DNA of 64,000 nucleotides from Sneathiella sp. HT1-7 (GTDB lineage Bacteria; Pseudomonadota; Alphaproteobacteria; Sneathiellales; Sneathiellaceae): NCBI RefSeq assembly GCF_020731145.1, contig NZ_JAJFZN010000001.1:1-64000 (forward strand), read 5' to 3'. Below the pieces are notes generated by a model, which saw only the letters and a program-made list of their open reading frames with translations, was not told where the DNA came from and searched no databases. Position numbers and translations under genes: made by a program. Of this stretch, positions 10,333-61,339 are shown one piece after another. Numbering within the stretch: the first letter of the stretch is position 1; every line of letters starts with the position of its first letter.

Positions 10333-11478
10333 TCAAGCGATGCGCTTGGCAGTGTGGGATTCAGTCATATCACCGCTATCGTTCAAGGCCTCCAACTCGG
10401 CGGCTTTTGCTTCGACCAGTTCGACAATATGATCCACCATATCCCCAGTCGCCACTTTATGATCCGTAACGCCGCTCAAGTAAACCATATGATTATCCTT
10501 ACCGCCGCCTGTCAGACCGATATCAGTCTCCCGTGCCTCTCCCGGGCCATTCACGACACAGCCAATAATCGAGAGGGTAAGCGGTGTGTGAATATGGGCC
10601 AGCCGCTCTTCAAGCAATTCAACTGTCTTGATTACAGGAAAGGCCTGCCGCGCGCAGGACGGACAGGAAATAATCGTGACACCCCGTCGGCGCAGTCCCA
10701 GGCTTTTCAGTATTTCATAGCCTGCCTTGATTTCCTCAACCGGATCGGCCGAAAGGGACACTCGGATTGTATCGCCAATCCCCGACCAGAGCAGCATGCC
10801 AAGACCGATAGAGGATTTCACCGTACCGGATGACAATCCGCCAGCTTCAGTAATACCTAAGTGGAGCGGATAGTCACATACCTCCGCCAGCCCCTGATAG
10901 GCCGCAACAGACAGGAAAACATCGGATGCTTTCACGCTGATCTTGAAATTAAAGAAGTCGTTGTCCTCAAGAATGCGAGCGTGGTTCATTGCCGATTCCA
11001 CCATCGCTTCCGGGCAGGGTTCGCCATATTTCTCCAACAGCTCACGCTCAAGGCTTCCGGCATTCACCCCAATCCGCATGGAGCAGTTATGATCTACAGC
11101 CGCCTTCACCACGTCGCGTACGCGATCGGCCGATCCGATATTACCGGGGTTGATCCGGAGACATGCCGCGCCGGCCTCCGCCGCCTCAATGCCGCGTTTA
11201 TAATGGAAATGGATATCCGCAATAATGGGAACGCTCGTCTCCCGGACAATTTCTTTCAGCGCTGCCGTGCTCGCCTCATCCGGACAGGAAACCCGGACCA
11301 TGTCCGCGCCGGCCTCTTCCAGCGCATGAATCTGCCCAATAGTCGCCTTGGCGTCGGACGTCAGAGTATTGGTCATTGACTGTACGGTTATCGGCGCATC
11401 TCCGCCAACAGGCACATCGCCGACAAAAATCTGGCGCGATTTCCGGCGGATAATCTCTCGGTAAGGTCTGATGCTCAT
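10333..11478 (-). CDS. ispG: 4-hydroxy-3-methylbut-2-en-1-yl diphosphate synthase (GcpE)
   Basis: Penultimate enzyme of the methylerythritol phosphate route to isoprenoids; converts MEcPP to HMBPP using a [4Fe-4S] cluster. The N-terminal TIM barrel is recognisable ([15 protein letters not shown]). The cluster-binding domain carries the cysteines in SCPSC and [10 protein letters not shown]. At 381 residues it is the short bacterial form without an insertion domain. Its presence means the organism makes isoprenoids by the MEP route rather than mevalonate, so the HMG-CoA-synthase-like protein at 54364 is unlikely to serve mevalonate synthesis. Confidence 0.96.
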
Positions 11479-35444: not shown

Positions 35445-37100
35445 ATGTATAAATATTCTGAACAGGATCACCAGCTCCTGCTGGAGCGCGTGTCCCAATT
35501 CCGTGGGCAGGTTGACCGCCGCCTTAAAGGCGAGCTGTCGGAAGAAGAATTCAAGCATCAAAGGCTACGGAATGGCCTCTACTTACAACTCCATGCCTAT
35601 ATGCTTCGGGTCGCCATCCCTTATGGTCTGCTGTCATCGGAACAGATGCGCACCCTCGCGCACATAGCCCGAAAGTATGATAAGGGTTACGGTCATTTCA
35701 GCACACGTCAAAATATCCAGTATAACTGGCCGAAGTTAGAAGATGTGCCGGATATTCTAGATGACCTAGCAAAGGTCGAGATGCACGCCATCCAGACCAG
35801 CGGTAACTGCATTCGCAACACAACATCCGATCCACTTGCCGGCGTCGCCCGCGATGAGATTGAAGATCCTCGCCCCTATTGCGAACTGATACGGCAATGG
35901 TCGACCTTCCATCCCGAGTTTAATTTCCTGCCACGTAAATTTAAAATCGCGGTGAGCGGCGCCACCCACGATCGGGCGGCAGTTGCCGTACATGATATTG
36001 GCCTTCGTCTGGTAAAAAGCGAAACATCAGAGGAGACCGGGTTTGAAGTCTATGTCGGAGGTGGGCTTGGCCGAACACCGATGCTCGGCAAGATCATTCG
36101 AAAATATCTTCCGAAGCAGGACATGCTCACCTATCTAGAGGCGATCTTGCGGGTTTATAATATGCTCGGTCGGCGCGATAATATTTACAAAGCACGCATC
36201 AAGATCCTTGTCCATGAAACAGGCGAAGAAAGATTCCGTGAGCTTGTCGAAACTGAGTGGGAGAAAATTAAGGCTGGCGGCCTTTTCCTGAGGGATGAGG
36301 ATTTTAATTGGGTCAAAGGGTTCTTTAACGATCCGGTATATGAATCTCTGCCCGATAGTGATGCAGACTTTGAGAATCTTATGCTCAGCAATGCGGAGTT
36401 CGCCCGCTGGGTCGATAAGAATATCGAGCTACACAAACAATCCGGCTATCGCATTGTTTACCTGTCCCTTAAAACTGCGCATCAACCACCGGGCGATGTG
36501 ACGGCCGATCAGATGGATGCGATTGCCGACCTTGCGGACAAATACAGCCTCGGCCATATTCGCACGACGCATCGGCAAAATCTGGTTCTTTCGGATGTGC
36601 CGCTAAAGGACTTACCGGCCCTTTGGGAAGAGTTGAAGGCGCTTGATCTTGCAACGCCCAACTACAACCATGTGACCGATATCATCTCCTGCCCCGGGCT
36701 GGATTACTGCGCGCTTGCAACGGCCCGCTCAATTCCAATTTCGCAGGCAATTACGGCGCGGTTTGATGACTATGACTTCATCAATGATCTTGGCGATGTT
36801 AGCATCAATATTTCCGGCTGCATCAACGCCTGCGGGCATCATCATGTTGCCAATATCGGCATCCTCGGCGTCAACAAGAAGGGGACGGAAGTCTATCAGT
36901 TGACCCTCGGCGGCAGCGCCCGTGAGGATGCGGCCATCGGCAAAATCATTGGCCCCGCGTTTGAGGCAGACGAGATTGTGGACGCCGTTGGTAAGGTTCT
37001 TGCGGTCTACCTTGAAAGCCGAGAGGAGCCTGAGGAGACTTTCCTTATGACATACCGGCGGCTCGGCCAGGCCCCTTTTAAGGAGCGGCTCTATGGATAA
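35445..37100 (+). CDS. cysI: Nitrite/sulfite reductase, ferredoxin-type (CysI-like)
   Basis: Siroheme- and [4Fe-4S]-containing enzyme reducing sulfite to sulfide with six electrons. Two ferredoxin-like half domains are present. The cluster cysteines occur in SCPGLDYCALATARS (C-x5-C) and SGCINACGHHH (C-x3-C). An N-terminal segment KYDKGYGHFSTRQNIQYNW and a mid-protein IRTTHRQNLVLSDV are the typical substrate and siroheme-contact regions. Length 551 residues, lacking any flavoprotein partner nearby, so ferredoxin is the likely donor. Surrounding cysH, DUF2849 and DUF934 support sulfite rather than nitrite as substrate. Confidence 0.93.
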   Translation: MYKYSEQDHQLLLERVSQFRGQVDRRLKGELSEEEFKHQRLRNGLYLQLHAYMLRVAIPYGLLSSEQMRTLAHIARKYDKGYGHFSTRQNIQYNWPKLEDVPDILDDLAKVEMHAIQTSGNCIRNTTSDPLAGVARDEIEDPRPYCELIRQWSTFHPEFNFLPRKFKIAVSGATHDRAAVAVHDIGLRLVKSETSEETGFEVYVGGGLGRTPMLGKIIRKYLPKQDMLTYLEAILRVYNMLGRRDNIYKARIKILVHETGEERFRELVETEWEKIKAGGLFLRDEDFNWVKGFFNDPVYESLPDSDADFENLMLSNAEFARWVDKNIELHKQSGYRIVYLSLKTAHQPPGDVTADQMDAIADLADKYSLGHIRTTHRQNLVLSDVPLKDLPALWEELKALDLATPNYNHVTDIISCPGLDYCALATARSIPISQAITARFDDYDFINDLGDVSINISGCINACGHHHVANIGILGVNKKGTEVYQLTLGGSAREDAAIGKIIGPAFEADEIVDAVGKVLAVYLESREEPEETFLMTYRRLGQAPFKERLYG

Positions 37101-38250: not shown

Positions 38251-38913
38251 CTAAGAGGAAGATACTCGTTTTCTTGAGTATATAACGGCAATGACCAGTC
38301 CAACGGCAAAACCGACGAGGTGAGCAACCCAGGCTATTCCCACCCCCGGACCGACCAGAAGCGTGCCAAGTGGTGTTGCGCCGATCACTAAATTTATGCC
38401 AAGCAGTACGGCAATCAGAGTCACAACGCCCCTTAGACGGTAGCGGGGCAAAAGGACAATCATCGTCGCCCCCATCGCGCCGAATACAGCCCCGGAGGCG
38501 CCGTAAAGAGTGATATTCACGTTTGGCTCGGCAATCAAATATTCAACAAACGCCCCGAACCAACCCGACAGGAAATACAGGATCAGAAAGCGAATTGCGC
38601 CGAACCGGCGCTCTGTCATAGTCCCGAAGGCCAGCAGCATCCCGGCGTTAAGGACCATATGGCTCCAGTCATTGTGAAGAAACATATGGCTGTTGAGCGT
38701 GATAAAAATATGTAAAAACCCGCTCAAGGAGCGCTGCTCAAGGAGGACGGAAACAATCGCCGGCCGGAAAGAAAAGTTACTATAGACCCAGTTCAATGTC
38801 TCAGGCGTCGTGATCGTAAGTAGCAGATGCACGCCAATAATGGCGGCAACCATATACATCGTCGCAGGTGGCACATTGAAGACCGGCTCCCGGCCCTGGT
38901 ATTCATTTGTCAC
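38251..38913 (-). CDS. Rhomboid family intramembrane serine protease
   Basis: A six-helix membrane protease of 220 residues. The catalytic serine S140 sits in GASG (138-141) and the catalytic histidine H198 in AHLVGF. The HNDWSHMVLNAGML segment after the first loop is the rhomboid HxxxN-type motif. The substrate is unknown. Its start lies 20 bases from the glutathione transferase stop, so the two are probably co-transcribed. Confidence 0.92.
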   Translation of the reverse strand: MTNEYQGREPVFNVPPATMYMVAAIIGVHLLLTITTPETLNWVYSNFSFRPAIVSVLLEQRSLSGFLHIFITLNSHMFLHNDWSHMVLNAGMLLAFGTMTERRFGAIRFLILYFLSGWFGAFVEYLIAEPNVNITLYGASGAVFGAMGATMIVLLPRYRLRGVVTLIAVLLGINLVIGATPLGTLLVGPGVGIAWVAHLVGFAVGLVIAVIYSRKRVSSS

Positions 38914-42954: not shown

Positions 42955-44766
42955 TTACGATTGATTTTCAATCAGGTCGCTCGGTACTTTGATCGGCAAT
43001 GCGAGAAGCTGTTGAGCGTATGTCTTCGCCAGATTATCAAGATGAAGAGTGGTGGTTCCACCGCCTCCCAGACAGTTCGTTAGCAGAAAATTCACCGCAT
43101 TCATACCCGGTAAATCAAACCGCATGACGTCACCCTCAACGACATGCCCGAAGTATTTCTTCACGGTCTTTTCTGTCGCGCTTTGCTTAATCCATGGAAG
43201 ATAATCAGGTTTGCGGGCAATAACACCGACATTAGCATTGTTCCCTTTATCACCGCTCCGCGCGGCGGCCAATGTTATGAGGGGCACTTCAACCAAAACA
43301 TCAGAGGTCGAATTCAAAGTGGCTTCCGGTGCAGAGTGGTGTGATTCCGGGAAACTTGAATACTTCCTCGGAACCATACTTTTATATTTAACCGGTTTAT
43401 CGTTTATGAATACTTTGGGCTGGATACGTGCCTTATCGATCTGGAAGGCGAACTGCGCAACTACCGGCGTGATCTTCGGCCGACCTGCCGCCCCTGCCGA
43501 GCAGCGCCCCGTCGTCATGGATAGACCAACACCCGTCGTCTCCTTAGAGAAAAGTTCGAGCGCCGCGCGTTCATCATGCTTGACTTCTATCTGGGTAACG
43601 ACCTCCCGTGCAACGGCGGCATGGTCGTCCGCATTATTGCCCCAGAGGGTTTGCGAGCCAATGACATGCACTGCCGTGTCACGATAGTCGCCTAAATTTC
43701 GCTCAACAAAAAGACGACGGGTCCGCTTCAGCAAGGCGTTGGCAAAAGCCCGCCCTTTCTCTACTGCATCAAAGCCTGTGATGACAGTCGCGGCCGTCGC
43801 GCGATATCCATCCTTATACGTACCCGAAACTTTATAAGTTGATGTTGGCGCACGGCCTTTGACATTCGCTACATCCAGCCAATCTTTCTTCGTTTCCGTT
43901 AAGGTTACTCCAGAAAAATCACAAATTACATCCGGCATAATATAGGCCTCGGGATCTCCAATCTCATAGAGGATCTGCTCACCCACTGTCAGGCGGGAGA
44001 CAAGGCCACCGGTGCCCTCTGGCTTGGTAATTGCGAAATTCCCGTCCTCCCGGCAGACAGCGATGGGATAGCCCATATCATCCCAGCCACCAACAGTATC
44101 CCGCCAATCGGTAAAATTACCCCCGGTCGCTTGCGCTCCGCATTCGAGAATATGACCAGCGAGACTACCCGAGGCGAGCCTGTCATAATCATCGACGGTC
44201 CAACCGAACTCATGGATTAAGGGCCCCAAGGTAACGGCACTATCAACGCATCGACCTGTGATCACCACATCCGCTCCTTCATCGAGGGCAGCAGCAATCG
44301 GAAAAGCCCCGAGATAGGCATTGGCGCTGATCATCCCGTCCGGCATCGGTACGCCGGAGAACATCTCGGTTATTCCTTCAGAACGAAGGTTTTCAATTTC
44401 CTCCGTCAGATTATCACCCTCCACCGTGCCGATTTTAAGATCGACACCAGCTTCCTCTGCGACTTTAGCGAGCGCAGACGCGCATGCCGCCACATTGACG
44501 CCGCCAGCATTGGCCACGACCTTGATACCGCGCGTCTTGATCTCATGAAGAAGCGGCTTCATGGCGAGATCGACGAAATCCCGCGCATAGCCAAGATCCG
44601 GCGATTTCTGCTTCGCCCGCACGAGGATAGACATGGTGACTTCCGCCAGATAGTCAAAGACGAGGTAATCAAGATTGCCTTTAAGGACGAGTTGGCGCGG
44701 TGCCTCCTGCGAGTCGCCCCAATACCCCGACGCGCCGCCGATGCGAATGGTTTTTGAATTAGTCAT
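42955..44766 (-). CDS. atuA: Acyclic terpene utilisation protein AtuA (DUF1446 + AtuA-like C-terminal domain)
   Basis: Marker protein of the acyclic terpene utilisation pathway. The N-terminal DUF1446 domain covers most of the protein (IRIGGASGYWGDSQEAP, VVANAGGVNV, VVITGRCVDSAV). The C-terminal AtuA-like domain carries the signature ARSGDKGNNANVGVIAR and ends in NCLGGGGTTTLHLDN. In Pseudomonas AtuA is proposed to act on the hydroxylated isohexenylglutaryl-CoA intermediate, but this has not been firmly shown. The ATG at 44766 is used rather than the GTG at 44775, which overlaps the upstream stop. Length 603 residues. Co-transcribed with the hydratase upstream. Confidence 0.88.
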   Translation of the reverse strand: MTNSKTIRIGGASGYWGDSQEAPRQLVLKGNLDYLVFDYLAEVTMSILVRAKQKSPDLGYARDFVDLAMKPLLHEIKTRGIKVVANAGGVNVAACASALAKVAEEAGVDLKIGTVEGDNLTEEIENLRSEGITEMFSGVPMPDGMISANAYLGAFPIAAALDEGADVVITGRCVDSAVTLGPLIHEFGWTVDDYDRLASGSLAGHILECGAQATGGNFTDWRDTVGGWDDMGYPIAVCREDGNFAITKPEGTGGLVSRLTVGEQILYEIGDPEAYIMPDVICDFSGVTLTETKKDWLDVANVKGRAPTSTYKVSGTYKDGYRATAATVITGFDAVEKGRAFANALLKRTRRLFVERNLGDYRDTAVHVIGSQTLWGNNADDHAAVAREVVTQIEVKHDERAALELFSKETTGVGLSMTTGRCSAGAAGRPKITPVVAQFAFQIDKARIQPKVFINDKPVKYKSMVPRKYSSFPESHHSAPEATLNSTSDVLVEVPLITLAAARSGDKGNNANVGVIARKPDYLPWIKQSATEKTVKKYFGHVVEGDVMRFDLPGMNAVNFLLTNCLGGGGTTTLHLDNLAKTYAQQLLALPIKVPSDLIENQS

Positions 44767-44771
44767 ATCAT

Positions 44772-45599
44772 TCACCCTTTCGCACTACTGTCCGGCATCT
44801 GCCAGGCGGGTTTTCGTTTTTCGGCGAAGGCTGACTGCCCCTCCTTACCCTCCGCACCTCTGTTCAACTCAGAAAATTTCGCAGCGGAGAAACTCACCAT
44901 TTCCTCTTCAGGGAGTGAGCCGACCTTTAACATAATCGCCTTGGTCGCCGCGTTCGCCATAGGTCCGCAACGTAGTACTCGCGCGACAACGTCCTCCAAC
45001 ATCGTGTCGATATCCGCATCGGCGGAAAGATACTGCGCAATGCCATATTCAAATGCCTTCGCGCCATCGAACCGCTCGGCGGTGAGGGCAAGCTGCCGCG
45101 CGCGAGTCAAGCCGATCCTTTTAACGACATAGGGCGCAATCTGGGCTGGCGCCACGCCAAGCGTTGTTTCCGGCATCCCCATCCGCGCACCCTCTGCAAC
45201 AATGGTAATATCGGCAAGGCAGGCATAGCCCATCCCTCCACCAAAGGCCGATCCTTCGACGACAGCAATGGTTGTCTGAGGCAGTCTCTCAAATCTCAGG
45301 AACGCCAGTCCGGCAGCACGGTTGCGTTCCATAATCGGATCGCTATCGGGGGTGACGACATCCTCGGCCATGTTACGACGTTCTTTAATATCGCCGCCCG
45401 CACAGAAATGCCCTCCTGCACCGCGCAGCACCACCACCCTGACCTCGGGTGTTGCCTCCAACCAATCGACAACAGCGGCGAATTCCGCCCCCATCTGACT
45501 ATTGATGGCATTTCGCTGATCCGGCCGGTTGAACCAAAGGTTCAATCTCCCCGCGACCACATCAAGCTTAAGAAATTCACACTCCGGTAGCTCATGCAT
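44772..45599 (-). CDS. atuE: Enoyl-CoA hydratase, isohexenylglutaconyl-CoA hydratase-like (AtuE)
   Basis: Crotonase-fold protein of 275 residues with oxyanion-hole motif GGHFCAGGDIKE and signature GSAFGGGMGYACLADITIV. The catalytic glutamates are conserved in the FGGGMGY and MPETTLGV segments. Position directly before atuA (nine bases between the stop and the atuA ATG region) and after tetR argues for the AtuE role: hydrating the carboxylated geranyl-type intermediate. Methylglutaconyl-CoA hydratase of leucine breakdown is the close alternative. Confidence 0.8.
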   Translation of the reverse strand: MHELPECEFLKLDVVAGRLNLWFNRPDQRNAINSQMGAEFAAVVDWLEATPEVRVVVLRGAGGHFCAGGDIKERRNMAEDVVTPDSDPIMERNRAAGLAFLRFERLPQTTIAVVEGSAFGGGMGYACLADITIVAEGARMGMPETTLGVAPAQIAPYVVKRIGLTRARQLALTAERFDGAKAFEYGIAQYLSADADIDTMLEDVVARVLRCGPMANAATKAIMLKVGSLPEEEMVSFSAAKFSELNRGAEGKEGQSAFAEKRKPAWQMPDSSAKG

Positions 45600-49646: not shown

Positions 49647-50441
49647 TCAGGCGTGGCGTGTTCCTGCCGCAGGAGGGTTGCGCGCAGGCCCCGCAAAACA
49701 CTGCGCGACAGACATCCAGCGCGTCGCAATCTCACCCGATACTTTTAGGTTGGTATCCGCAATATTACGAGTCTGCGTAACAACCTGACAGAATTCGGAA
49801 GCATCGCCTTCAACAAGGTCCGCGGTATTTTCCGGGTTCCATTCCCAGATGTCTCCCGACGGGGCCGTCAACCGGACATGCGGCACCGGTTCCGGCACCT
49901 CTTCCTTGCGATTAATAAAAGTCCAGCCGAAGGTATTCATTCCCATAACGGCAATACTTTTGATCAGATCCCTGTTCTCCCGTTTTACGCCAAGCAGGTC
50001 ATAGATTTCCTGCGCATGGGACCAAGTTTCCATTAACCGGGCAGAGATGCTGGACCGCGCACTCATGCTCGGCCCAACCCAAAGCAAACGCTGCTTCGGA
50101 TCAGCGGCGTAAAACCGATCCGACATCTCCATATAATAGGCCCGCCAGGCATCCCGCAACGCGGTTCCCTTTAGGCCATCCAGCATTTTATCTGTTGCAT
50201 CAATAAGTGAACCGGATTTATCCCGAAGCTCGGAAAGCTCTCCATAAACTCGCTTGAATGCTTCTTCATCCGTAAGAGTCAAATCAGCGACATAATTGAA
50301 GAAATGCAGATGCTGCATGACATCATTAACCGTCCAGTCGCGGAACAGCGTTACCCGGTCGTAATCCGCCTCACCAAGCGGCTCAATGAGACTGTAGAGT
50401 GCTTCGCTTTCATCTCTGAAATCATAGGCTTCTTTCAGCAT
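49647..50441 (-). CDS. TIGR03084 family metal-binding protein (DinB/MDMPI-like)
   Basis: A 264-residue protein of the DinB/mycothiol-dependent maleylpyruvate isomerase superfamily. Four-helix-bundle metal residues are seen in WTVNDVMQHLHFFN and LMETWSHAQEIYDLLGV. The C-terminal domain has the strongly conserved VRLTAPSGDIWEW and EFCQVVTQTRNIADT. Members occur beside Atu-type genes; the reaction is unknown. The superfamily uses low-molecular-weight thiols as cofactors, so a thiol-dependent isomerase or transferase is possible. ATG 50441 was chosen because upstream codons lack similarity. Follows atuF by 28 bases. Confidence 0.8.
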   Translation of the reverse strand: MLKEAYDFRDESEALYSLIEPLGEADYDRVTLFRDWTVNDVMQHLHFFNYVADLTLTDEEAFKRVYGELSELRDKSGSLIDATDKMLDGLKGTALRDAWRAYYMEMSDRFYAADPKQRLLWVGPSMSARSSISARLMETWSHAQEIYDLLGVKRENRDLIKSIAVMGMNTFGWTFINRKEEVPEPVPHVRLTAPSGDIWEWNPENTADLVEGDASEFCQVVTQTRNIADTNLKVSGEIATRWMSVAQCFAGPARNPPAAGTRHA

Positions 50442-50469
50442 TGTCTGAATTTCCCTTTTTATTTCCGCA

Positions 50470-52461
50470 TTATTCCGGCACTTCAATTTCGAACAGAAGA
50501 TCGTCGATAGACACTTGGCTTGCCGCCGTGGCAATCACATTCTGCACGACACCGGCAACTTCAGCCTGGATATCATGCTGCATCTTCATCGCCTCCAGCA
50601 CAGCAAGACGGGTCCCAACATCAACTGTATCACCAGCCTTCACAAAGACTTCCAACAAGGTGCCATGCATGGGCGCTGTCACCTGCCCGCTCCCCGCAGC
50701 GGATGCGGTCGCCTCCGGGAACGCTATCTCATTAATAAACCGTAACGTCTTCCCGCCATCGGTGAATTCCAGCACCCCTTCAGAAAGGGCCTCATAATGC
50801 ACGCGTTTGCGACTTCCATCGACGGTCAGCAGTGCCCTGTTCTCGCTCCGCTCCAAAACCTCAATGACCAGAGCTGCTTCACCCACCATAACATTATAAC
50901 CGCCTTCGCGCTTTGGCGCGACAGTGACATCGATTTGATCTTCAGCCGCCGGGAACACATAACGGGTCAGCAATTCTCCGCCGCTTGACCAATCCATAAG
51001 CTGCTCAGTCACAAAAATCGCCGCCGATTTTGCCCGTTCACGCTCCACCTGATACAAAAGAACGGCGGCCATCGCCATTTCAATCTGATCCGGAATTTTT
51101 GCAGCCAACCGCTCGCCATCGAATAAGTCGCCAATAAAAGCGGTCGTCGCCTCTCCTTTTGCAAAGGTCTCCTCATTGAGGATATCGATTAGAAAACCAC
51201 GGTTGGTTGTCAGGCCAAATATTACCGTATTTTTAAGCGCCTCAATCAGACGGTGGCGGGCAATCTCCCGACTTTCGCCATGGGCGATGACTTTCGCGAT
51301 CATCGGATCATAAAAAGGGGAGATATCCTGCCCGGAATCAATGCCGGCGTCGAATCGCACGCCGTCTCCGTCCGCCGCCTGCCATGTCGTAATCTTGCCT
51401 GTACAGGGAAGGAAGTCCTGCGCGGTATCTTCCGCATAAAGACGCACTTCAATGGCATGGCCATTCAGCTTAACGTCCTGTTGCTCAATCCCAAGCGGCT
51501 CACCCTGCGCCACTTGAATTTGTAGCGACACAAGATCGTTTCCCGTCACCATCTCGGTCACCGGATGTTCCACTTGCAACCGGGTATTCATTTCGAGAAA
51601 ATAGAAATTATTTCCGGCATCGAGCAGAAACTCAACGGTACCGGCACCACGATAGTTGATACTGCGCGCCGCTTCCACCGCAGCTGAGCCCATCTTTTCC
51701 CGGAGTTCCGGTGTCATGACTGGGCATGGCGCTTCCTCTACCACTTTTTGATGTCGGCGCTGAACCGAGCAATCCCGCTCACCCAGATGGACAACATTCC
51801 CATGATTATCCGCGAAAACTTGAACTTCTACATGTCGCGGTTCAATTATCGCTTTTTCAAGGATAAGCTCCTCCGAACCGAACGCGTTAAGCGCTTCCGA
51901 GCGCGCAGAGGCAAGGGCGTCAACAAGGTTCTTCTCTTCATGTACAAGACGCATGCCGCGACCACCTCCGCCCGCCGCGGCCTTCACCATAATCGGAAAC
52001 CCAATATCTTTGGCTGCGGCAACAAGTGTACCGTCAGACTGGTCATGGTCTTCATATCCGGGAACACAAGGCACATCTGCCGCAATCATCCGCCGCTTGG
52101 CCGCTGCCTTGTTCCCCATCAAGTCAATCGCCTCGGCAGAGGGTCCAATGAAGACAATACCCGCATCCTCGCATGCCCGTGCAAAATCTGCATTCTCTGA
52201 CAGGAATCCGTAACCCGGGTGAATAGCCTCCGCTCCCGTTTCCTTGGCTGCGGCCAATATCTTTGTCATATCCAAATAGGACTGCTGGACAGGCGCAGGC
52301 CCAATCAACATTGCCTCATCTGCGATACGGACATGAAGCGCCGCGGCATCCGCCTCTGAGTAAACAGCGATAGTGCGATACCCGAGACTTTTGGCTGTTT
52401 TGATTACCCTAACGGCAATTTCGCCCCGATTGGCGATCAATATGCTATTGAAATTTCTCAT
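50470..52461 (-). CDS. atuF: Acyl-CoA carboxylase alpha subunit, biotin-carrying (AtuF-like)
   Basis: Biotin carboxylase plus carrier subunit for carboxylation of a branched enoyl-CoA. Biotin carboxylase domain (NSILIANRGEIAVRVIKTA; ATP-grasp MVKAAAGGGGRGMR; EMNTRLQVEHPVTE), a BT linker, and a C-terminal carrier domain with the biotinylated K626 in EAMKM. Length 663 residues. Forms a complex with the neighbouring beta subunit. Linkage to atuA favours geranyl-CoA carboxylase, with 3-methylcrotonyl-CoA carboxylase (LiuD) as the close alternative. Confidence 0.87.
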   Translation of the reverse strand: MRNFNSILIANRGEIAVRVIKTAKSLGYRTIAVYSEADAAALHVRIADEAMLIGPAPVQQSYLDMTKILAAAKETGAEAIHPGYGFLSENADFARACEDAGIVFIGPSAEAIDLMGNKAAAKRRMIAADVPCVPGYEDHDQSDGTLVAAAKDIGFPIMVKAAAGGGGRGMRLVHEEKNLVDALASARSEALNAFGSEELILEKAIIEPRHVEVQVFADNHGNVVHLGERDCSVQRRHQKVVEEAPCPVMTPELREKMGSAAVEAARSINYRGAGTVEFLLDAGNNFYFLEMNTRLQVEHPVTEMVTGNDLVSLQIQVAQGEPLGIEQQDVKLNGHAIEVRLYAEDTAQDFLPCTGKITTWQAADGDGVRFDAGIDSGQDISPFYDPMIAKVIAHGESREIARHRLIEALKNTVIFGLTTNRGFLIDILNEETFAKGEATTAFIGDLFDGERLAAKIPDQIEMAMAAVLLYQVERERAKSAAIFVTEQLMDWSSGGELLTRYVFPAAEDQIDVTVAPKREGGYNVMVGEAALVIEVLERSENRALLTVDGSRKRVHYEALSEGVLEFTDGGKTLRFINEIAFPEATASAAGSGQVTAPMHGTLLEVFVKAGDTVDVGTRLAVLEAMKMQHDIQAEVAGVVQNVIATAASQVSIDDLLFEIEVPE

Positions 52462-52514: not shown

Positions 52515-54137
52515 TTAGAGTCGGCCAACGCCGAAGCTGTTCGGTTGCAGGGTGCGATTACGCGCCTCCCAGCATGTTTGCAGCGCGAAGCCGATGACTT
52601 TACGGCTATCACGTGGATCGATAACACCTTGGTCAAGAAGTTTGCCTGAGGTATAAAACGCGTCCGCTTGACTATCAAAGTGATCAATCAAACGCGCCTT
52701 TTGAGCGGCGAGTGCCTCTTCATCAACAGGTATGCCTTTGCGTTCTGCACCACTTCGCGCCACCTGATCCATGGTGAGTGCCGCTTGTTCACCACCCATC
52801 ACGCCAGTCTTGGCATTTGGCCAGGCAAACAGGAAATCCGGGTCATAGGCAAGGCCGGCCATCCCATAGTTACCGGCACCGAAGCTTGCCCCGATATAGA
52901 GTGTTATTTTCGGCACCCGGACGGTGGAAACGGCCTGGATCATTTTAGATCCATGCTTGATCATACCTTTTTGTTCATACTCCTTGCCAACCATATAGCC
53001 GGTAATATTATTCAGGAAGATCAACGGAATATTCGCCTGGTCACAAAGCTGGAAGAACTGTCCGCCCTTCGCCGCGCCATCCGGATCGATCGGGCCATTA
53101 TTGCCCACGATGCCGCAGGCCTGTCCGAAGATATTAGCCTGCAAACAAACAAGGGTGGCACCGTAACGTGGTTTAAATTCCTCAAAATCGGAACCATCAA
53201 CCAGCCGGGCGACAACTTCGCGGACGTCATAAGGTTTTCGATAATCCACCGGAACCACACCAGTAATCTCTTCCGGATCGTAGCGCGGCTCCTTGAAACT
53301 TTTTATCTCTGGTGTCGGGCATTTATCGTTCCAGCCGAGGCGGCCAATGATGTCCCGTGCAATCAAAAGGCCATGGGCGTCGTCTTCGGCGAGATATTCA
53401 ACAAGCCCCGTGGTGGTCGCATGCATTTCCGATCCCGCCAGTTCCTCCTCATCCGAGATTTCACCTGTTGCAGCCCGCACCAGAGCCGCACCGCCGAGAG
53501 AGGCGCGCCCCCGCCCCTTGATGCCAATAACATAATCGCTCATGCCGGGGAAATATGCCCCACCGGCCGTTGATGGGCCGTGCAGAACGACGAAAGTAGG
53601 GATACCTGCCGCACTCAATTTTGCGAGCCTCTGGAATCCCCCGCCCCCATGCGCCCATGATTCAACCTGATACTTCAGAAGATTGGCGCCCGCACTCTCA
53701 ACGAGATGTACAAAAGGAAGCTTCTTATCAATGGCAATATCCTGACAGCGACGGACTTTCTCCCCGGACTTCTGGGTCATTGCGCCAGCGTTGATGCCGC
53801 TATCGCTCGCGAAGATCATACACCGCACACCGTTGATAAATCCGATGCCAGCCAACGAACTTGCCCCCGGAATGCTTTTATCCCGATCATTCGTATCCAC
53901 CATATAATTGGCGAGGCCGAACAGCTCCAGAAAGGGCATACCCGGATCGAGAAGACGGACCAACCGCTCACGTGGGGTCAATTGACCGCGCTCCTCAAAT
54001 CTGGCGCGCCGACGCTCAGATAATTGTTTCGCGCGATCTTTTAACGCATGTAAATCATCGACAAGTGCCAGCATCTCCTGCCGATTGGTGGCAAAGCTGT
54101 CAGAAGAGGCAACGATTTTGGATGAGAAAACGGCCAT
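52515..54137 (-). CDS. atuC: Acyl-CoA carboxylase beta subunit, carboxyltransferase (AtuC-like)
   Basis: Carboxyltransferase partner of the biotin subunit 53 bases downstream. Typical crotonase-like halves: VESAGANLLKYQ, GIPTFVVLHGPSTAGGAYFPGMSDYVIGIKG (in pieces) and, in the second half, NNITGYMVGKEYEQKGMIKHG, GASFGAGNYGMAGLAYDPDF. Length 540 residues. The segment before the LSAAGIP motif is glycine-rich (HGGGGF) where methylcrotonyl enzymes usually carry bulkier residues, which would suit a longer substrate such as geranyl-CoA; this needs an alignment. A GGGAG ribosome site precedes the ATG. First gene of its leftward transcript. Confidence 0.87.
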   Translation of the reverse strand: MAVFSSKIVASSDSFATNRQEMLALVDDLHALKDRAKQLSERRRARFEERGQLTPRERLVRLLDPGMPFLELFGLANYMVDTNDRDKSIPGASSLAGIGFINGVRCMIFASDSGINAGAMTQKSGEKVRRCQDIAIDKKLPFVHLVESAGANLLKYQVESWAHGGGGFQRLAKLSAAGIPTFVVLHGPSTAGGAYFPGMSDYVIGIKGRGRASLGGAALVRAATGEISDEEELAGSEMHATTTGLVEYLAEDDAHGLLIARDIIGRLGWNDKCPTPEIKSFKEPRYDPEEITGVVPVDYRKPYDVREVVARLVDGSDFEEFKPRYGATLVCLQANIFGQACGIVGNNGPIDPDGAAKGGQFFQLCDQANIPLIFLNNITGYMVGKEYEQKGMIKHGSKMIQAVSTVRVPKITLYIGASFGAGNYGMAGLAYDPDFLFAWPNAKTGVMGGEQAALTMDQVARSGAERKGIPVDEEALAAQKARLIDHFDSQADAFYTSGKLLDQGVIDPRDSRKVIGFALQTCWEARNRTLQPNSFGVGRL

Positions 54138-54241
54138 TCGGAACTCCCGATTTTTATTTTTTTCTTTATTGATAGCATAGGAAAGTTCGCGCCGTTAAGA
54201 AAAAAAATGACGTGAGCGACCGTGGCATAATTTAATTTTCT

Positions 54242-54303
54242 GGCGTTACGCCGACAGTCGTTTTAAACTGTCATTCTGCAGGAAATAAATCGCGGGATAT
54301 AAT
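54242..54303 (+). promoter_or_regulatory. Promoter and inverted repeats upstream of the HMGCS-like gene
   Basis: A perfect -10 hexamer TATAAT lies at 54298-54303, with a weak -35 TTCTGC at 54274-54279. Immediately upstream are two inverted repeats: GGCGTTACGCC (54242-54252) and GACAGT-N8-ACTGTC (54253-54272). The second fits a dimeric regulator site. The palindrome differs from the one between tetR and the acyl-CoA dehydrogenase gene, so another regulator may be involved. Confidence 0.5.
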
Positions 54304-54363
54304 GCTACGCGCCCTGCATCATATAAGTGGCACTAAGAAATAATAAAAAAGGAGCCTTTCCAA

Positions 54364-55833
54364 ATGGAAGTAGGAATATTGGCCTACGGGGGATATATCC
54401 CGCAAAGCCGATTGCAACGTAGTGAAATCGCAAAAGCTCACAGCTGGTTTAATCCAGGGCTTAACGGCCTTGCCAAGGGCGAAAGAGCAATGGCAAATTG
54501 GGACGAAGATAGCGTCACCATGGCCGTCGAAGCTGCGCGGGATTGTCTCGCAGACTCTGACCGCAATGATGTTTCCGCTGTTTATATGGCCTCAACCAGC
54601 TTTCCGTTTATGGATCGGCAGAATGCAGGCATCGTTGCTGATGCGCTGAACCTGAACAGCAGCCTGCAGACCCTCGATTTCGCCTCCTCCCAGCGAGCAG
54701 GTAGCGCGGGATTGGCGACAGCCCTTCAGGTAGCCAAAGGAGGCAGCGGCCCAATTCTTTTCACTGCTGCGGAAAAACGCCAGACGAAGGCGGCAAGCCC
54801 GCTGGAATTCACATCCGGCGACGGGGCGGCCGCTTTTCTGGTCGGTCAGGGCAAAGTCATTGCCCGCCTTCTCGGCAGCCATACAGAAGCCGTTGATTTC
54901 GTCGATCACTTCCGTGGCGAAGGCGAAGCCTATGACTACAATTGGGAAGAACGCTGGATCCGCGATGAGGGATATCTCAAAATTGTACCAAGTGCCATTT
55001 CCGCCCTGTTGTCGGAAACCGGAGTTAAAGCGGAAGATGTTACAACCTTCTGCTTCCCGGTAGCCGCGCGCGGTGTCGCTGGAATGCTTGCGAAGAAACT
55101 CGGTATACCCGAGAGTTCCGTTGCAGATAATCTTCAGGCAAACTGCGGTGAGACTGGGACTGCCCATTCCATGGTAATGCTGTCCCATGCGTTGGAAAAT
55201 AGTAAGCCGGGCGATAAAATCCTTGTCGCAAGCTTCGGTCAGGGCAGCGATGCTCTCCTGTTCGAAGTGACTGAGGAAATCAAATCGCTTTCTCCCCGCA
55301 AAGGCGTTTCGGGCTATCTCGCTCGTCGCTATGCGGAAACGAACTACAACAAGTTCCTCGCGTTCCATGATCTGGTTAACTTGGAACGTGGTATCCGCGC
55401 AGAGACCGACAAGAAAACCGGCCTGACGACCCTTTATCGCAACAAGGGAATGACCCAGGCCATGATTGGTGGTCAATGTTCCCAATGCGGTACGGCGCAG
55501 TTTCCGAAGTCCAATATGTGCGTTAATGAAAATTGCGGCGCCATCGGTACGCAAGAGGATTACCCCTTCGCGGAGAGAATTTCAAAAGTGAACTCCTTTA
55601 CCGCGGACCGGCTTACCTATTCACCGGATCCGCCCGCCTATTACGGCATGATCCAGTTCGAAGAAGGCGGTCGCCTGATGAGTGACTTTACCGATATCTC
55701 GCCTGAAACGGATATCAAGGTAGGAATGCCCATGCGGATGATGTTTAGGGTCAAAGACTATGACAACAAGCGCGGGTTCAGGCGTTATTTCTGGAAAGCG
55801 ACCCCCGCGGACGCTTCAAATAAAGGAGAATAA
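54364..55833 (+). CDS. HMG-CoA synthase-like protein fused to a DUF35 (Zn ribbon/OB-fold) domain
   Basis: A 489-residue fusion. Residues about 1-320 have the thiolase/HMG-CoA synthase fold (VGILAYGGYIPQSRL; late NCGETGTAHSM). Residues about 360-480 are a DUF35 domain with a zinc ribbon (C372, C375, C386, C391) and an OB-fold. In archaeal HMG-CoA synthase the catalytic Glu and Cys lie in SESHPY and EFACKAG. Here the same places read STSFPF (T78) and DFASSQRAG (S108/S109), so normal condensation chemistry is not expected. A GGAG ribosome site precedes the ATG; the thiolase gene follows two bases after the stop. Archaeal thiolase-HMGCS-DUF35 complexes and steroid retro-aldolase/DUF35 pairs are the nearest models. 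Possible role: acyl-CoA binding or C-C cleavage in the Atu-type pathway. Confidence 0.8.
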   Translation: MEVGILAYGGYIPQSRLQRSEIAKAHSWFNPGLNGLAKGERAMANWDEDSVTMAVEAARDCLADSDRNDVSAVYMASTSFPFMDRQNAGIVADALNLNSSLQTLDFASSQRAGSAGLATALQVAKGGSGPILFTAAEKRQTKAASPLEFTSGDGAAAFLVGQGKVIARLLGSHTEAVDFVDHFRGEGEAYDYNWEERWIRDEGYLKIVPSAISALLSETGVKAEDVTTFCFPVAARGVAGMLAKKLGIPESSVADNLQANCGETGTAHSMVMLSHALENSKPGDKILVASFGQGSDALLFEVTEEIKSLSPRKGVSGYLARRYAETNYNKFLAFHDLVNLERGIRAETDKKTGLTTLYRNKGMTQAMIGGQCSQCGTAQFPKSNMCVNENCGAIGTQEDYPFAERISKVNSFTADRLTYSPDPPAYYGMIQFEEGGRLMSDFTDISPETDIKVGMPMRMMFRVKDYDNKRGFRRYFWKATPADASNKGE

Positions 55834-55835
55834 AA

Positions 55836-57041
55836 ATGGCTGCAGGGATTAAAGATAAAGTTGCTATTTTGGGTATGGGTTGTTCACGATTTGGCGAACG
55901 CTGGAATGACAACGCAGAAGATTTGATGATCGAGGCCTATGTCGAGGCGCTGGCAGACGCGGGGATCGAGAAGAGCTCGATTGACGCCGCCTGGTTTGGC
56001 ACCGGTATCGAGGAAGAGCATGTGGGCAAATCCGCCGTACCGCTTTCCATGGCGCTAAGGCTTCCCAACATCCCCGTTACCCGTGTTGAAAACTACTGCG
56101 CCAGTGGTTCAGAAGCTTTCCGTGGTGCCGTCTATGCTGTTGCCTCCGGCGCGTGCGATATCGCGCTCGCCCTTGGTGTCGAGAAATTGAAGGACACAGG
56201 ATATGGCGGCCTGCCGCAACGTAACCGCGGATCCGTCAATGACCTCTTCTGGGCGAATGCGTCGGCTCCCGGCTCTTTTGCGCAGTTGGCTTCGGCTTAT
56301 TCTGCGAAGCATGGCGTCAATAAAGATGACATGAAGCGGGCGATGGCCCATATCTCCGTCAAGAGCCATGACAACGGATCCAAAAATCCAAAGGCGCATC
56401 TTCGTAATAAAATCAACGAAGATAAGGTGATGAACGCCCCAATGATTGCAGAGCCCCTCGGCCTCTTCGATTGCTGCGGTGTAAGCGATGGATCGGCCTG
56501 TGCCATTGTCACGACCCCAGAAATTGCGAAATCACTGGGAAAATCGGATCTGATAACGGTCAAAGCTATGCAACTCGCGGCCTCTAACGGTCGGGAAGCG
56601 CAGCATAACTCCTGGGATGGCAGTCATTTCGTGACCACCCGCGCAGCTGCTAATCGCGCCTATAAGGAAGCGGGGATTACCAAGCCGCGGGATCAGATCA
56701 GCCTGTTCGAAGTACATGACTGCTTTTCCATAACGGAATTTGTCACCATGGAAGATCTTTTCATCTCCGAAGAAGGTAATGCCGTCAACGATATCATGGA
56801 TGGCTTCTATGATGCTGACGGCAAGATCCCTTGCCAAATCGACGGCGGGCTTAAATGCTTCGGCCATCCGATTGGCGCATCGGGCCTGCGCATGATTTAC
56901 GAGATGTATCTGCAGATGCAGGGCCGCGCAGGAGATCGTCAGAGAAAGGAAGAGCCCGTGGTTGGCATGACACATAACCTCGGCGGCTTCCCGCATCAGA
57001 ATGTCTGCTCCATCACCATTGTCGGAAAAGAAGGCGCTTAA
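55836..57041 (+). CDS. Thiolase family acetyl-CoA acetyltransferase (SCP2-type)
   Basis: A 401-residue thiolase of the SCP-x/archaeal type. The nucleophilic Cys is C88 in NYCASGSEA. The other catalytic residues lie in FEVHDCFSITEF and GGLKCFGHPIGASG. It therefore should catalyse thiolytic cleavage or Claisen condensation, unlike its upstream partner. The gap to the HMGCS-like/DUF35 gene is two bases, so a stoichiometric complex is likely, as DUF35 bridges thiolase and HMGCS in archaea. Here it probably releases acetyl-CoA during branched-chain acyl breakdown. Confidence 0.9.
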   Translation: MAAGIKDKVAILGMGCSRFGERWNDNAEDLMIEAYVEALADAGIEKSSIDAAWFGTGIEEEHVGKSAVPLSMALRLPNIPVTRVENYCASGSEAFRGAVYAVASGACDIALALGVEKLKDTGYGGLPQRNRGSVNDLFWANASAPGSFAQLASAYSAKHGVNKDDMKRAMAHISVKSHDNGSKNPKAHLRNKINEDKVMNAPMIAEPLGLFDCCGVSDGSACAIVTTPEIAKSLGKSDLITVKAMQLAASNGREAQHNSWDGSHFVTTRAAANRAYKEAGITKPRDQISLFEVHDCFSITEFVTMEDLFISEEGNAVNDIMDGFYDADGKIPCQIDGGLKCFGHPIGASGLRMIYEMYLQMQGRAGDRQRKEEPVVGMTHNLGGFPHQNVCSITIVGKEGA

Positions 57042-58652: not shown

Positions 58653-58931
58653 ATTTTCCTCCCCGTCTTGCTTTTTTTGTCTGCAGGTTATTGTTGAATT
58701 TTCTCCGTCAGGCGGATTATGGGCCGCTCACTATATTTATGCGCGGCCATCATTTCCCGCTTCGCCAATACAATAATATTTTATGGTGTCCCTGTTGTTC
58801 CTCTCATCATGCCCGCTTTCACCATTTTGTAAAAGCCCTTTGGCCTCCGAAGAGGTTTGATACCTGCCCTATATCGCCGTAAGATGGGCCAAAATAATAA
58901 GCATTCAAACTCTGAGAAGGGATAATCCGCC

Positions 58932-60234: not shown

Positions 60235-61113
60235 TTACTTGCTTTCGACGGTAATTACCACACGACGGTTTGCCGCGTTTTTAACACCATCAGCAGTCTG
60301 GACTTTTAGGTCCTTCTTACCGTAGGAGCGCATGATAATCCGCTTCGGCTCCATGCCTTCCTCGATACCCATGAAGGCAACGTTTTCGGCACGGCGTTCA
60401 CCAAGCTTGTCATTGTAGACTACGCTACCGACTGTATCTGTATAGCCAGCGATCGTGATCTTCGGATCCTTGAATTTTTTCATGTATTCCGCAGCTGCTT
60501 TGACCTCTTCCATAGAGCCTGGCAGTGGTGTATCGGAATCGAAATCAAAATTCACTTCGAAGGATTGCGGCGCCATCATGGGTTCTTTCTTCTTCATGAC
60601 GACAACTTTTTCTTCAACAACAACCGCGACCGGTGCCATTGCAGCTTCAATCTCTTCCATCGCTAGCACGAAGGCATCCCGGCAAGCGGCGATATCTTTC
60701 GGCTGCCAGTTTTCTTCCTGCTCCTGCACCCAGCAATCAAAGCTTGTCTGGGCTTTTGCTGCCTGCATCGGAAGCTTCTCACGTGCGCCAGCATTCAGAA
60801 CCTCCATCAAACGTTCCCGCGCGCCGATCAGGACCGGCTCTCTGTCGGAAGGAAGATGCCATTCTTCTGGGTGATAGGGATCAACCTGTTCCCCACGTGT
60901 TGCCGCCATTGCCTTTTCTGCAAAGCGGTCAGAATCAATGTAGTCGCCTTCGTTATATTCAGCTTTCGCAAGTTCAATATAACCTGTGTAAAGCGCTTGC
61001 TGGTACTCACTCCCGCTCGGGCTTAACCGTTCGGCCTGTTCCAACTTGCCACCACATGCCGCCAGCACGAGCGAAGCTGCGCCAACAATCGCAAATCTAA
61101 TCGTATTTTTCAT
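60235..61113 (-). CDS. OmpA-like lipoprotein with peptidoglycan-binding domain
   Basis: A 292-residue envelope protein. Lipobox LVLAAC with C20, then a helical N-terminal domain (about 22-160), a Val/Lys/Met-rich linker (VVVEEKVVVMKKKEPMMAP), and a C-terminal OmpA domain: FNFDSD-like NFDFDSDTPL, the peptidoglycan contact GYTDTVGSVVYNDKLGERRA and NRRVVITVESK. It links the outer membrane to the wall. The ATG at 61113 is chosen because the GAGGGGAAGATT ribosome site precedes it and the lipoprotein signal begins there; the longer frame to 61158 lacks both. Strong terminator downstream. Confidence 0.9.
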   Translation of the reverse strand: MKNTIRFAIVGAASLVLAACGGKLEQAERLSPSGSEYQQALYTGYIELAKAEYNEGDYIDSDRFAEKAMAATRGEQVDPYHPEEWHLPSDREPVLIGARERLMEVLNAGAREKLPMQAAKAQTSFDCWVQEQEENWQPKDIAACRDAFVLAMEEIEAAMAPVAVVVEEKVVVMKKKEPMMAPQSFEVNFDFDSDTPLPGSMEEVKAAAEYMKKFKDPKITIAGYTDTVGSVVYNDKLGERRAENVAFMGIEEGMEPKRIIMRSYGKKDLKVQTADGVKNAANRRVVITVESK

Positions 61114-61339
61114 AATCTTCCCCTCAACCCTTTCCAAGGTGCACTGGTATAACACCAAGTATGGTTAATACTAGTACGTTGCAGAGCAGCAAACAATAAA
61201 ATTCACTGTCATAAAGCTGAAATAAGCTATTTGTGCGTTGTTTCAACTCTTATTTTGCAAATACTTAATAAAACCTATGAAATAAAAATGTCCTAAATAC
61301 GGCAACTAACGACCATATTTATGACTTTAACATTCATAC

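Follow-up and report, generated by a model that had tools for sequence, protein, structure and literature searches.

A thiolase paired with an HMG-CoA-synthase-like/DUF35 fusion lacking catalytic residues beside an Atu-like island of Sneathiella: a probable 3-oxoacyl-CoA thiolase complex

The gene pair and its features

The stretch of DNA analysed here (the window) comprises 64,000 nucleotides of Sneathiella sp. HT1-7, positions 1 to 64,000 of the forward strand of contig NZ_JAJFZN010000001.1 (assembly GCF_020731145.1), the source genome having 3.83 Mb in 11 contigs. It carries two adjacent genes, the first of which encodes a half resembling 3-hydroxy-3-methylglutaryl-coenzyme A (HMG-CoA) synthase fused to a DUF35 domain, and the second a thiolase of the SCP2/archaeal type; they are called here the fusion, the partner thiolase and, together, the pair. 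According to the coordinates of the open reading frames (ORFs), only two bases separate the stop of the fusion from the start of the thiolase. The catalytic residues of HMG-CoA synthase are missing from the fusion, and the thiolase motifs are in place. The features are as follows.

54364..55833, + strand: HMG-CoA-synthase-like/DUF35 fusion, 489 amino acids (ORF list, Pfam domains)
54595..54597, + strand: Thr78, in the column of the catalytic Glu82
54691..54693, + strand: Gln110, in the column of the nucleophilic Cys114
55057..55059, + strand: Pro232, in the column of the catalytic His
55465..55539, + strand: zinc ribbon of DUF35, with C372, C375, C386 and C391 (Pfam)
55615..55749, + strand: OB-fold of DUF35 (PF01796, 34.1 bits, cut-off 27.1)
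55836..57041, + strand: SCP2/archaeal-type partner thiolase, 401 amino acids (PRK06157)
56097..56099, + strand: Cys88, nucleophile of the thiolase
56715..56726, + strand: HDCF motif of the thiolase (residues 294-297)
54138..54363, no strand: gap of 226 bases separating the pair from the divergent carboxylase genes (ORF coordinates)

Within the fusion, the Pfam domains are ACP_syn_III_C (residues 216-295), zf-ChsH2 (368-392) and OB_ChsH2_C (418-462). Databases name such fusions HMG-CoA synthase, 3-oxoacyl-ACP (acyl carrier protein) synthase III C-terminal domain protein or OB-fold protein, and the first two of these names are misleading.

Loss of the catalytic residues in the synthase-like half

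The best sequence match of the synthase half is the HMG-CoA synthase of M. thermolithotrophicus (6esq_I, E-value 1.8e-32). The predicted model of the fusion (pLDDT 87.3, pTM 0.91) has the archaeal-type HMG-CoA synthase fold, its top match being the HMG-CoA synthase chain 6esq_J (Z 45.9 over 335 residues, root-mean-square deviation 1.9), followed by PhlA-type chains (Z 43.3-44.7) and MucABC (Z 41.2-41.3). Both the pairwise alignment and a wider one place Glu82 of the M. thermolithotrophicus enzyme on Thr78 of the fusion; Cys114 falls on Gln110, in an ungapped stretch and with confirmation from the wider alignment, and the catalytic His falls on Pro232 in the wider alignment. The original prediction had described a fusion without the catalytic Cys and Glu, with Thr78 instead of the latter, and this is borne out by the 6esq_I alignment as well as by the 81 rows described below; its placing of S108/S109 in the Cys column has to be corrected by one to two residues, since it is Gln110 that stands there.

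The main alignment of fusions has 81 rows, namely the window and 80 loci, which are the best 80 of 256 relatives, low-identity ones being under-represented. The wider alignment joins the window, 11 of those 80 loci, 18 plasmid records chosen from 56 (17 fusions and one unfused Priestia gene) and three reference segments. Thr78 occupies 80 of the 81 rows, the remaining one being a gap, Pro232 also 80, and Gln110 71, with no Cys in that last column (0/81). A catalytic Cys or Glu shifted to a nearby position, which the original prediction had named as what would refute it, was looked for in both alignments and by a scan of positions, and was rejected: Glu or Asp occurs at positions 76-80 in none of the 81 rows (one being gapped at 78), and a Cys within 104-114 in a single one (L052, at the neighbouring position 112). 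Moreover, none of the 17 fused plasmid relatives, which come from Proteobacteria, Actinobacteria and haloarchaea, has a Cys or Glu in the catalytic columns of the wider alignment, the catalytic-column His being kept in two of them (L126 and L130). As wider alignment columns reveal, PhlA and 9vbo_A also lack the catalytic Cys and Glu. Since relatives and plasmid fusions alike are without these residues, their loss is, as judged from the alignments, family-wide and not a local decay.

In the sister genome G005, the fusion (L101; G005:C7, near 106832-108291) is found in two overlapping pieces with stops, next to an intact thiolase of 88% identity, and represents either a decayed gene or a sequencing error.

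Its fold and its sequence relation to the archaeal enzyme might suggest that the fusion is still active as an HMG-CoA synthase and serves mevalonate synthesis. This is hardly conceivable, given that the catalytic Cys, Glu and His are absent and that the cut-offs of both HMG-CoA synthase models are missed (213.7 against 244 bits for PRK04262 and 162.9 against 353.35 bits for TIGR00748), which supports the earlier opinion, drawn from a putative ispG (ORF 10333-11478), that HMG-CoA synthesis is unlikely here. A different possibility is that the synthase half has a new active site, for example around the conserved H268, T78, Q110 and the segment DYNWEERWIRDEGY (residues 191-203), for a step coupled to the thiolase. 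H268 is found in 80 of the 81 rows, and the segment, which differs from HMG-CoA synthase, shows strong conservation among proteobacterial relatives, one alignment behind this conservation using 50 of 72 sequences. However, the fusions of Rhodococcus, Streptomyces and haloarchaea retain the segment in part or not at all, Q110 varies among the rows, and PhlA, in which the same residues are lost, is thought to serve assembly only (PMC6392133), all of which makes a new active site quite improbable.

The zinc ribbon and the partner thiolase

The four cysteines of the zinc ribbon (C372, C375, C386 and C391) are present in 81 of 81 rows, so that the claim of an intact ribbon stands. The thiolase scores 697.7 bits with PRK06157 (cut-off 403). 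Among structure chains, its sequence matches 7yvy_A with an E-value of 7.6e-61 and, second-best, 6esq_A with 3.1e-56, the best PhlC-type chain reaching 5.1e-20; the match to BbsAB (7pxp) is at 2.3e-43, and the BbsB model gives 152.5 bits, below its cut-off of 750. That the thiolase begins two bases downstream and has kept Cys88, as originally stated, agrees with the ORFs and with the 80 thiolase rows, 79 of which have Cys88, the other being a gap; HDCF and GHP occur in 77 rows, the other three being gaps. For the plasmid fusions, 16 of the 17 partner thiolases were examined, L136 having no annotated thiolase at that place; HDCF is found in 16 of 16, and the Cys motif in 15 by pattern and in the sixteenth by eye.

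A tree of 30 thiolase rows, rooted for drawing only and with long branches for several rows, places the window thiolase in a group of 15 rows of proteobacterial partners (support 100/100). A wider group of 19 rows (100/99) adds the partner thiolases of Novosphingobium ES2-1, Rhodococcus and Streptomyces; those of haloarchaea group separately, and the source genome's two aldolase-like proteins fall elsewhere.

SCP2 thiolases, with HDCF, have been set apart from the aldolases, with YDHF or YDCY, Sal having a Gly instead of the nucleophilic Cys (PMC12329534). These retro-aldolase features are not seen in the partner thiolase, HDCF standing in all 77 rows that cover it and Cys88 being present. The source genome itself offers an internal contrast, since its two thiolase-like/DUF35 pairs L081 (G000:C7:790-3987) and L082 (G000:C7:227407-230577), both with stand-alone DUF35 genes, have YDSF and no nucleophilic Cys, and by sequence look like retro-aldolases. 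An aldolase-type thiolase was rejected as the identity of the partner, because it keeps Cys88 and HDCF and the aldolase-like proteins of the genome differ from it.

Conservation of the pairing and neighbouring functions

The thiolase starts at most 182 bases from the end of the fusion in 67 of 78 loci, and over these 78 loci the mean identity is 79.8% for the thiolase against 62.9% for the fusion, the thiolase being the more conserved of the two. Locus L065 stops at a contig edge. Among the plasmid records, a short-chain dehydrogenase/reductase (SDR), MaoC, the fusion and the thiolase stand in a row, and others have ring-hydroxylating dioxygenase neighbours. In three haloarchaeal plasmid records (L130, L131 and L134) the order seen in bacteria is reversed, with the thiolase coming first. 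The plasmid cluster of Novosphingobium sp. ES2-1 (L127) holds the pair together with a lipid-transfer-protein/OB-fold pair and a P450, and two DUF35 complexes may act there in one route.

Neighbouring functions were counted at 42 of 85 loci, after the ten that belong to the window's clade and all those shorter than 19 kb had been set aside, and compared with 20 control stretches. SDR genes lie near 27 of the loci and three of the controls, acyl-CoA dehydrogenases near 18 and two, AMP-ligases (AMP, adenosine monophosphate) near 17 and one, crotonases near 15 and two, MaoC near eight and none, and CoA-transferases near 12 and two (p 0.19). At least three of the six beta-oxidation classes occur at 18 of the 42 loci and at one of the 20 controls (p 0.003), and at least one class at 36 of the 42.

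These counts bear on the idea of a forward reaction, in which the pair would be a product-making C-acyltransferase or Claisen condensing enzyme like PhlACB. The three-part make-up is indeed the same as in PhlACB and MucABC, and an unfused three-gene relative adjoins a peptide synthetase in Priestia. Nevertheless, beta-oxidation classes lie near most of the full-length loci, the annotated plasmid records from Proteobacteria and Rhodococcus have a catabolic appearance, and the thiolase is far nearer to archaeal and SCP2-type thiolases, such as 6esq_A, than to the best PhlC-type chain, so that a forward role is unlikely.

The Atu-like island and its relation to the pair

On the other side of the 226-base gap lie the genes of a putative Atu-like island, flanked, like the pair, by genes that served as synteny anchors.

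52515..54137, - strand: geranyl-CoA-carboxylase-like beta subunit, AtuC-like (577.9 bits with 5ikl_B against 465.2 with methylcrotonyl-CoA carboxylase 3u9r_B)
50470..52461, - strand: biotin carboxylase alpha subunit, AtuF-like (Pfam and curated models)
42955..44775, - strand: AtuA-family protein, a candidate for the lyase that cuts the tertiary 3-hydroxy intermediate (PF07287, 469.8 bits)
44772..45599, - strand: enoyl-CoA hydratase beside AtuA, in an AtuE-like place (Pfam and curated models)
38251..38913, - strand: rhomboid-like gene, left synteny anchor (43.7-50.5% in six relatives)
35445..37100, + strand: left synteny anchor, which we take to be sulfite-reductase-like (77-81% in six relatives)
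60235..61158, - strand: right synteny anchor, presumably OmpA-like (52-55% in L093, L100 and L101)

With a geranyl-CoA-carboxylase-like beta subunit and AtuA present together, the Atu-type island of the original prediction is confirmed as Atu-like. The hydratase gives 177.2 bits with the gamma-carboxygeranoyl-CoA hydratase model PRK05674, short of its cut-off of 426, and is not assigned to the AtuE type. An HMG-CoA lyase is encoded in the source genome, in a liu-like cluster (452.1 bits, cut-off 246). Directly after the carboxylase alpha gene, at 49647-50534, the window has a TIGR03084 protein of a mycothiol-isomerase-like family (289.7 bits, cut-off 247.95). In five loci (L002, L003, L006, L007 and L019) an extra acyl-CoA dehydrogenase separates the AMP-ligase from the enoyl-CoA hydratase; the space at 58653-58931 of the window leaves no room for this gene of its clade relatives.

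It had been proposed that the pair may cleave the HMG-like intermediate of the Atu route, that is, that it is the lyase cutting 3-hydroxy-3-isohexenylglutaryl-CoA by a retro-aldol or retro-Claisen reaction, like the DUF35-linked steroid aldolases. In favour of a lyase are the position of the pair next to the island, its joint presence with AtuA in 17 of 144 alphaproteobacterial genomes (4.9 expected), and the DUF35 partners of the steroid aldolases (PMC12329534). The proteins themselves do not support it: Cys88 and HDCF are kept, as against YDHF or YDCY in the aldolases and Gly in Sal, and the genome has its own Cys-less, YDSF-bearing DUF35-linked proteins in L081 and L082. A tertiary 3-hydroxyacyl-CoA is not known to be a thiolase substrate. 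Moreover, the AtuA-family protein and the HMG-CoA lyase, both present in the genome, are better candidates; the lyase step has been assigned to AtuA (PMC4847356) or to LiuE (PMC4097962), and the pair is not among the atuABCDEFGH enzymes named in the consulted passages of the former. The distribution of the genes likewise disagrees with a lyase role, which is very unlikely.

In fact, the fusion is found in 24 of the 25 genomes of the window's family, and in nine (G000, G004, G007, G008, G009, G012, G020, G021 and G022) AtuA is at most 13 kb away from it. The remaining genomes either have only one of the two genes or carry them at a large distance or on separate contigs. Thus G006 and G010 have the Atu core of carboxylase, hydratase and AtuA elsewhere, with the pair on another contig; G002, G005 and G019 have the pair, with only distant hits to AtuA (35-37% at best) and to the carboxylase (51-52%); and G024, a draft of 580 contigs, has AtuA, the fusion not being found in it. 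In G021 the island is split, AtuA, hydratase and pair lying together on contig C18 (L019) and a carboxylase-like gene on C1. Outside the window's clade, AtuA was found at none of 75 loci, 33 of which are under 19 kb.

The same left anchors stand beside the pair in six sister genomes (G002, G005, G006, G010, G016 and G019), and the OmpA-like gene recurs near the pair in G002, G003 and G005. Between these anchors and the pair, in the slot that the Atu-like island fills in the window, all six carry a BadH-like SDR (with an internal stop in G005). An acyl-CoA dehydrogenase and a crotonase were each detected in five, the exception being G010 for the former and G005 for the latter, and four (G006, G010, G016 and G019) have a CoA-transferase. 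Scoring with curated profiles, which covered G006 (L094), put the crotonase above the BadI cut-off (482.2 against 467.6 bits), the dehydrogenase narrowly below that of cyclohexanecarboxyl-CoA dehydrogenase (570.7 against 575.35 bits) and the SDR below that of BadH (354.4 against 431.2 bits). Since the same anchors flank the pair together with a BadI-type operon in the sisters, it is the catabolic operon that has changed and the pair that has stayed, a cyclohexanecarboxylate-like operon filling the slot in sister Sneathiella. The idea that the pair belongs permanently to the Atu island was rejected, as pair and island each occur without the other within the genus.

At the level of whole genomes the association with AtuA is stronger than locus comparison alone would suggest. 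Among the 144 alphaproteobacterial genomes, 26 have the fusion, 27 have AtuA and 17 have both (odds ratio 20, p 2.5e-9), nine having only the fusion and ten only AtuA, in counts that ignore descent and genome size. The excess persists with three Sneathiella removed (14 against 3.9 expected), with only AtuA hits of at least 45% identity (14 against 4.2) and among the 45 genomes positive for HMG-CoA lyase (8 against 3.2). Other combinations were counted to control for a catabolic way of life. HMG-CoA lyase accompanies the pair in 11 genomes, where 8.1 are expected (p 0.24), which is no more than chance; AtuA and HMG-CoA lyase co-occur weakly (13 against 8.4, p 0.04); and an aldolase-like gene of the source genome co-occurs weakly both with the pair and with AtuA, the figures being the same in each case (4 against 1.3, p 0.02). 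Geranyl-CoA-carboxylase-like hits at a strict threshold were found in 22 of the 144 genomes. The co-occurrence supports a functional link of the pair with AtuA-family proteins, a link which, set against the comparison of loci, is weakened and not rejected. The pair, which is met in many catabolic gene clusters, is not specific to the Atu island, and its use downstream of AtuA is plausible.

Proposed function

From gene order, residue losses, predicted fold, conservation and genomic settings, we consider it probable (about 0.7) that the pair forms one complex which would work as a 3-oxoacyl-CoA thiolase, its synthase half being dead. Following the general thiolase mechanism, Cys88 would take the acyl group, helped by the HDCF and GHPIG residues. 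The fused partner, a dead synthase fold with the zinc ribbon and OB-fold of DUF35, would hold the complex together and probably shape the substrate or CoA pocket, as has been proposed for PhlA and PhlB in PhlACB. In the Sneathiella clade the likeliest substrates would be the 3-oxoacyl-CoA left after AtuA or LiuE cuts the Atu intermediate, other branched or ring-derived 3-oxoacyl-CoAs being alternatives. That the pair could take a 3-oxoacyl-CoA made by AtuA or LiuE is suggested by analogy with another route, in which ThnQS, an AtuA-like enzyme, releases 3-oxoazeloyl-CoA from a CoA ester with a tertiary hydroxyl group, and the thiolase ThnV then cleaves this product (unpublished results cited in the review PMC12016498).

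Several observations weigh against a thiolase complex of this kind. The thiolase falls outside the 182-base range at 11 of the 78 loci, although one of them (L039) has a negative distance that may reflect a wrongly chosen start, and L047 has no thiolase in the 5.3 kb of its sequence that lie downstream of the fusion. None of the six beta-oxidation classes was found at 6 of the 42 loci (14 of the 20 controls), because of which some pairs may do something other than thiolysis, and the controls were drawn from the window's family only. The fusion and AtuA are adjacent in one of the 17 co-occurring genomes, several of which are drafts with the genes on different contigs, and shared descent may contribute to the co-occurrence. 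Furthermore, other thiolases of the genome could serve the island.

If the thiolase complex is real, a widespread type of thiolase carries a pseudo-enzyme subunit, and the pair becomes a candidate for the thiolysis that follows AtuA-type lyases in the breakdown of terpenoids and ring compounds. A broader proposal, tentative and at present rather doubtful, is that catabolic thiolase complexes with the dead synthase/DUF35 protein as obligate pocket and scaffold form a large and as yet undescribed class in Proteobacteria, Actinobacteria and haloarchaea, which in Alphaproteobacteria would be functionally coupled to AtuA-type lyases, so that a tertiary 3-hydroxy compound would be converted into a 3-oxoacyl-CoA and then passed to the thiolase.

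Comparison with known systems

No description of the fused family was found among the literature matches listed, in a search that left most subscription journals outside. Nevertheless, known systems share parts of its make-up. The archaeal thiolase/HMG-CoA synthase/DUF35 complex (6esq) has the same three parts and is what the synthase half resembles most in both sequence and fold; it differs in that the window's synthase half is without the catalytic Cys, Glu and His, and in that its DUF35 domain is fused and not separate. BbsAB, the benzoylsuccinyl-CoA thiolase (7pxp), has, to our knowledge, no synthase-like chain. It resembles the pair in being a thiolase that acts in beta-oxidation together with a DUF35-type partner, and the steroid aldolases Ltp2/ChsH2 and Sal/Shy share the thiolase fold with a DUF35 partner (both in PMC12329534), although they have YDHF or YDCY, with Gly for Cys in Sal, where the window has Cys88 and HDCF.

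The closest likeness in make-up is that with PhlACB, CsATase and MucABC, in which a synthase-like part without Cys and Glu and a DUF35-type part accompany a thiolase part with an essential Cys88 (in PhlC). The PhlACB type is further defined by a dodecameric complex and by C-acylation of phenols. According to PMC6392133, PhlA lacks the Cys and Glu, acyl transfer is carried out by PhlC residues only, and PhlA and PhlB are very likely needed for the PhlACB complex; in CsATase, which is related to PhlACB, the C88S change in PhlC abolishes activity (PMC12955522). Unlike PhlACB, where the A and B parts and the thiolase are encoded by three separate genes, the window has A and B in one chain, its thiolase has HDCF and is much nearer to archaeal/SCP2 thiolases than to PhlC, and its neighbourhood looks catabolic and not antibiotic. 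The pair is thus likely to be a fused, catabolic-looking variant of the PhlACB type of make-up, for which a lyase role is unlikely and a thiolase role likely.

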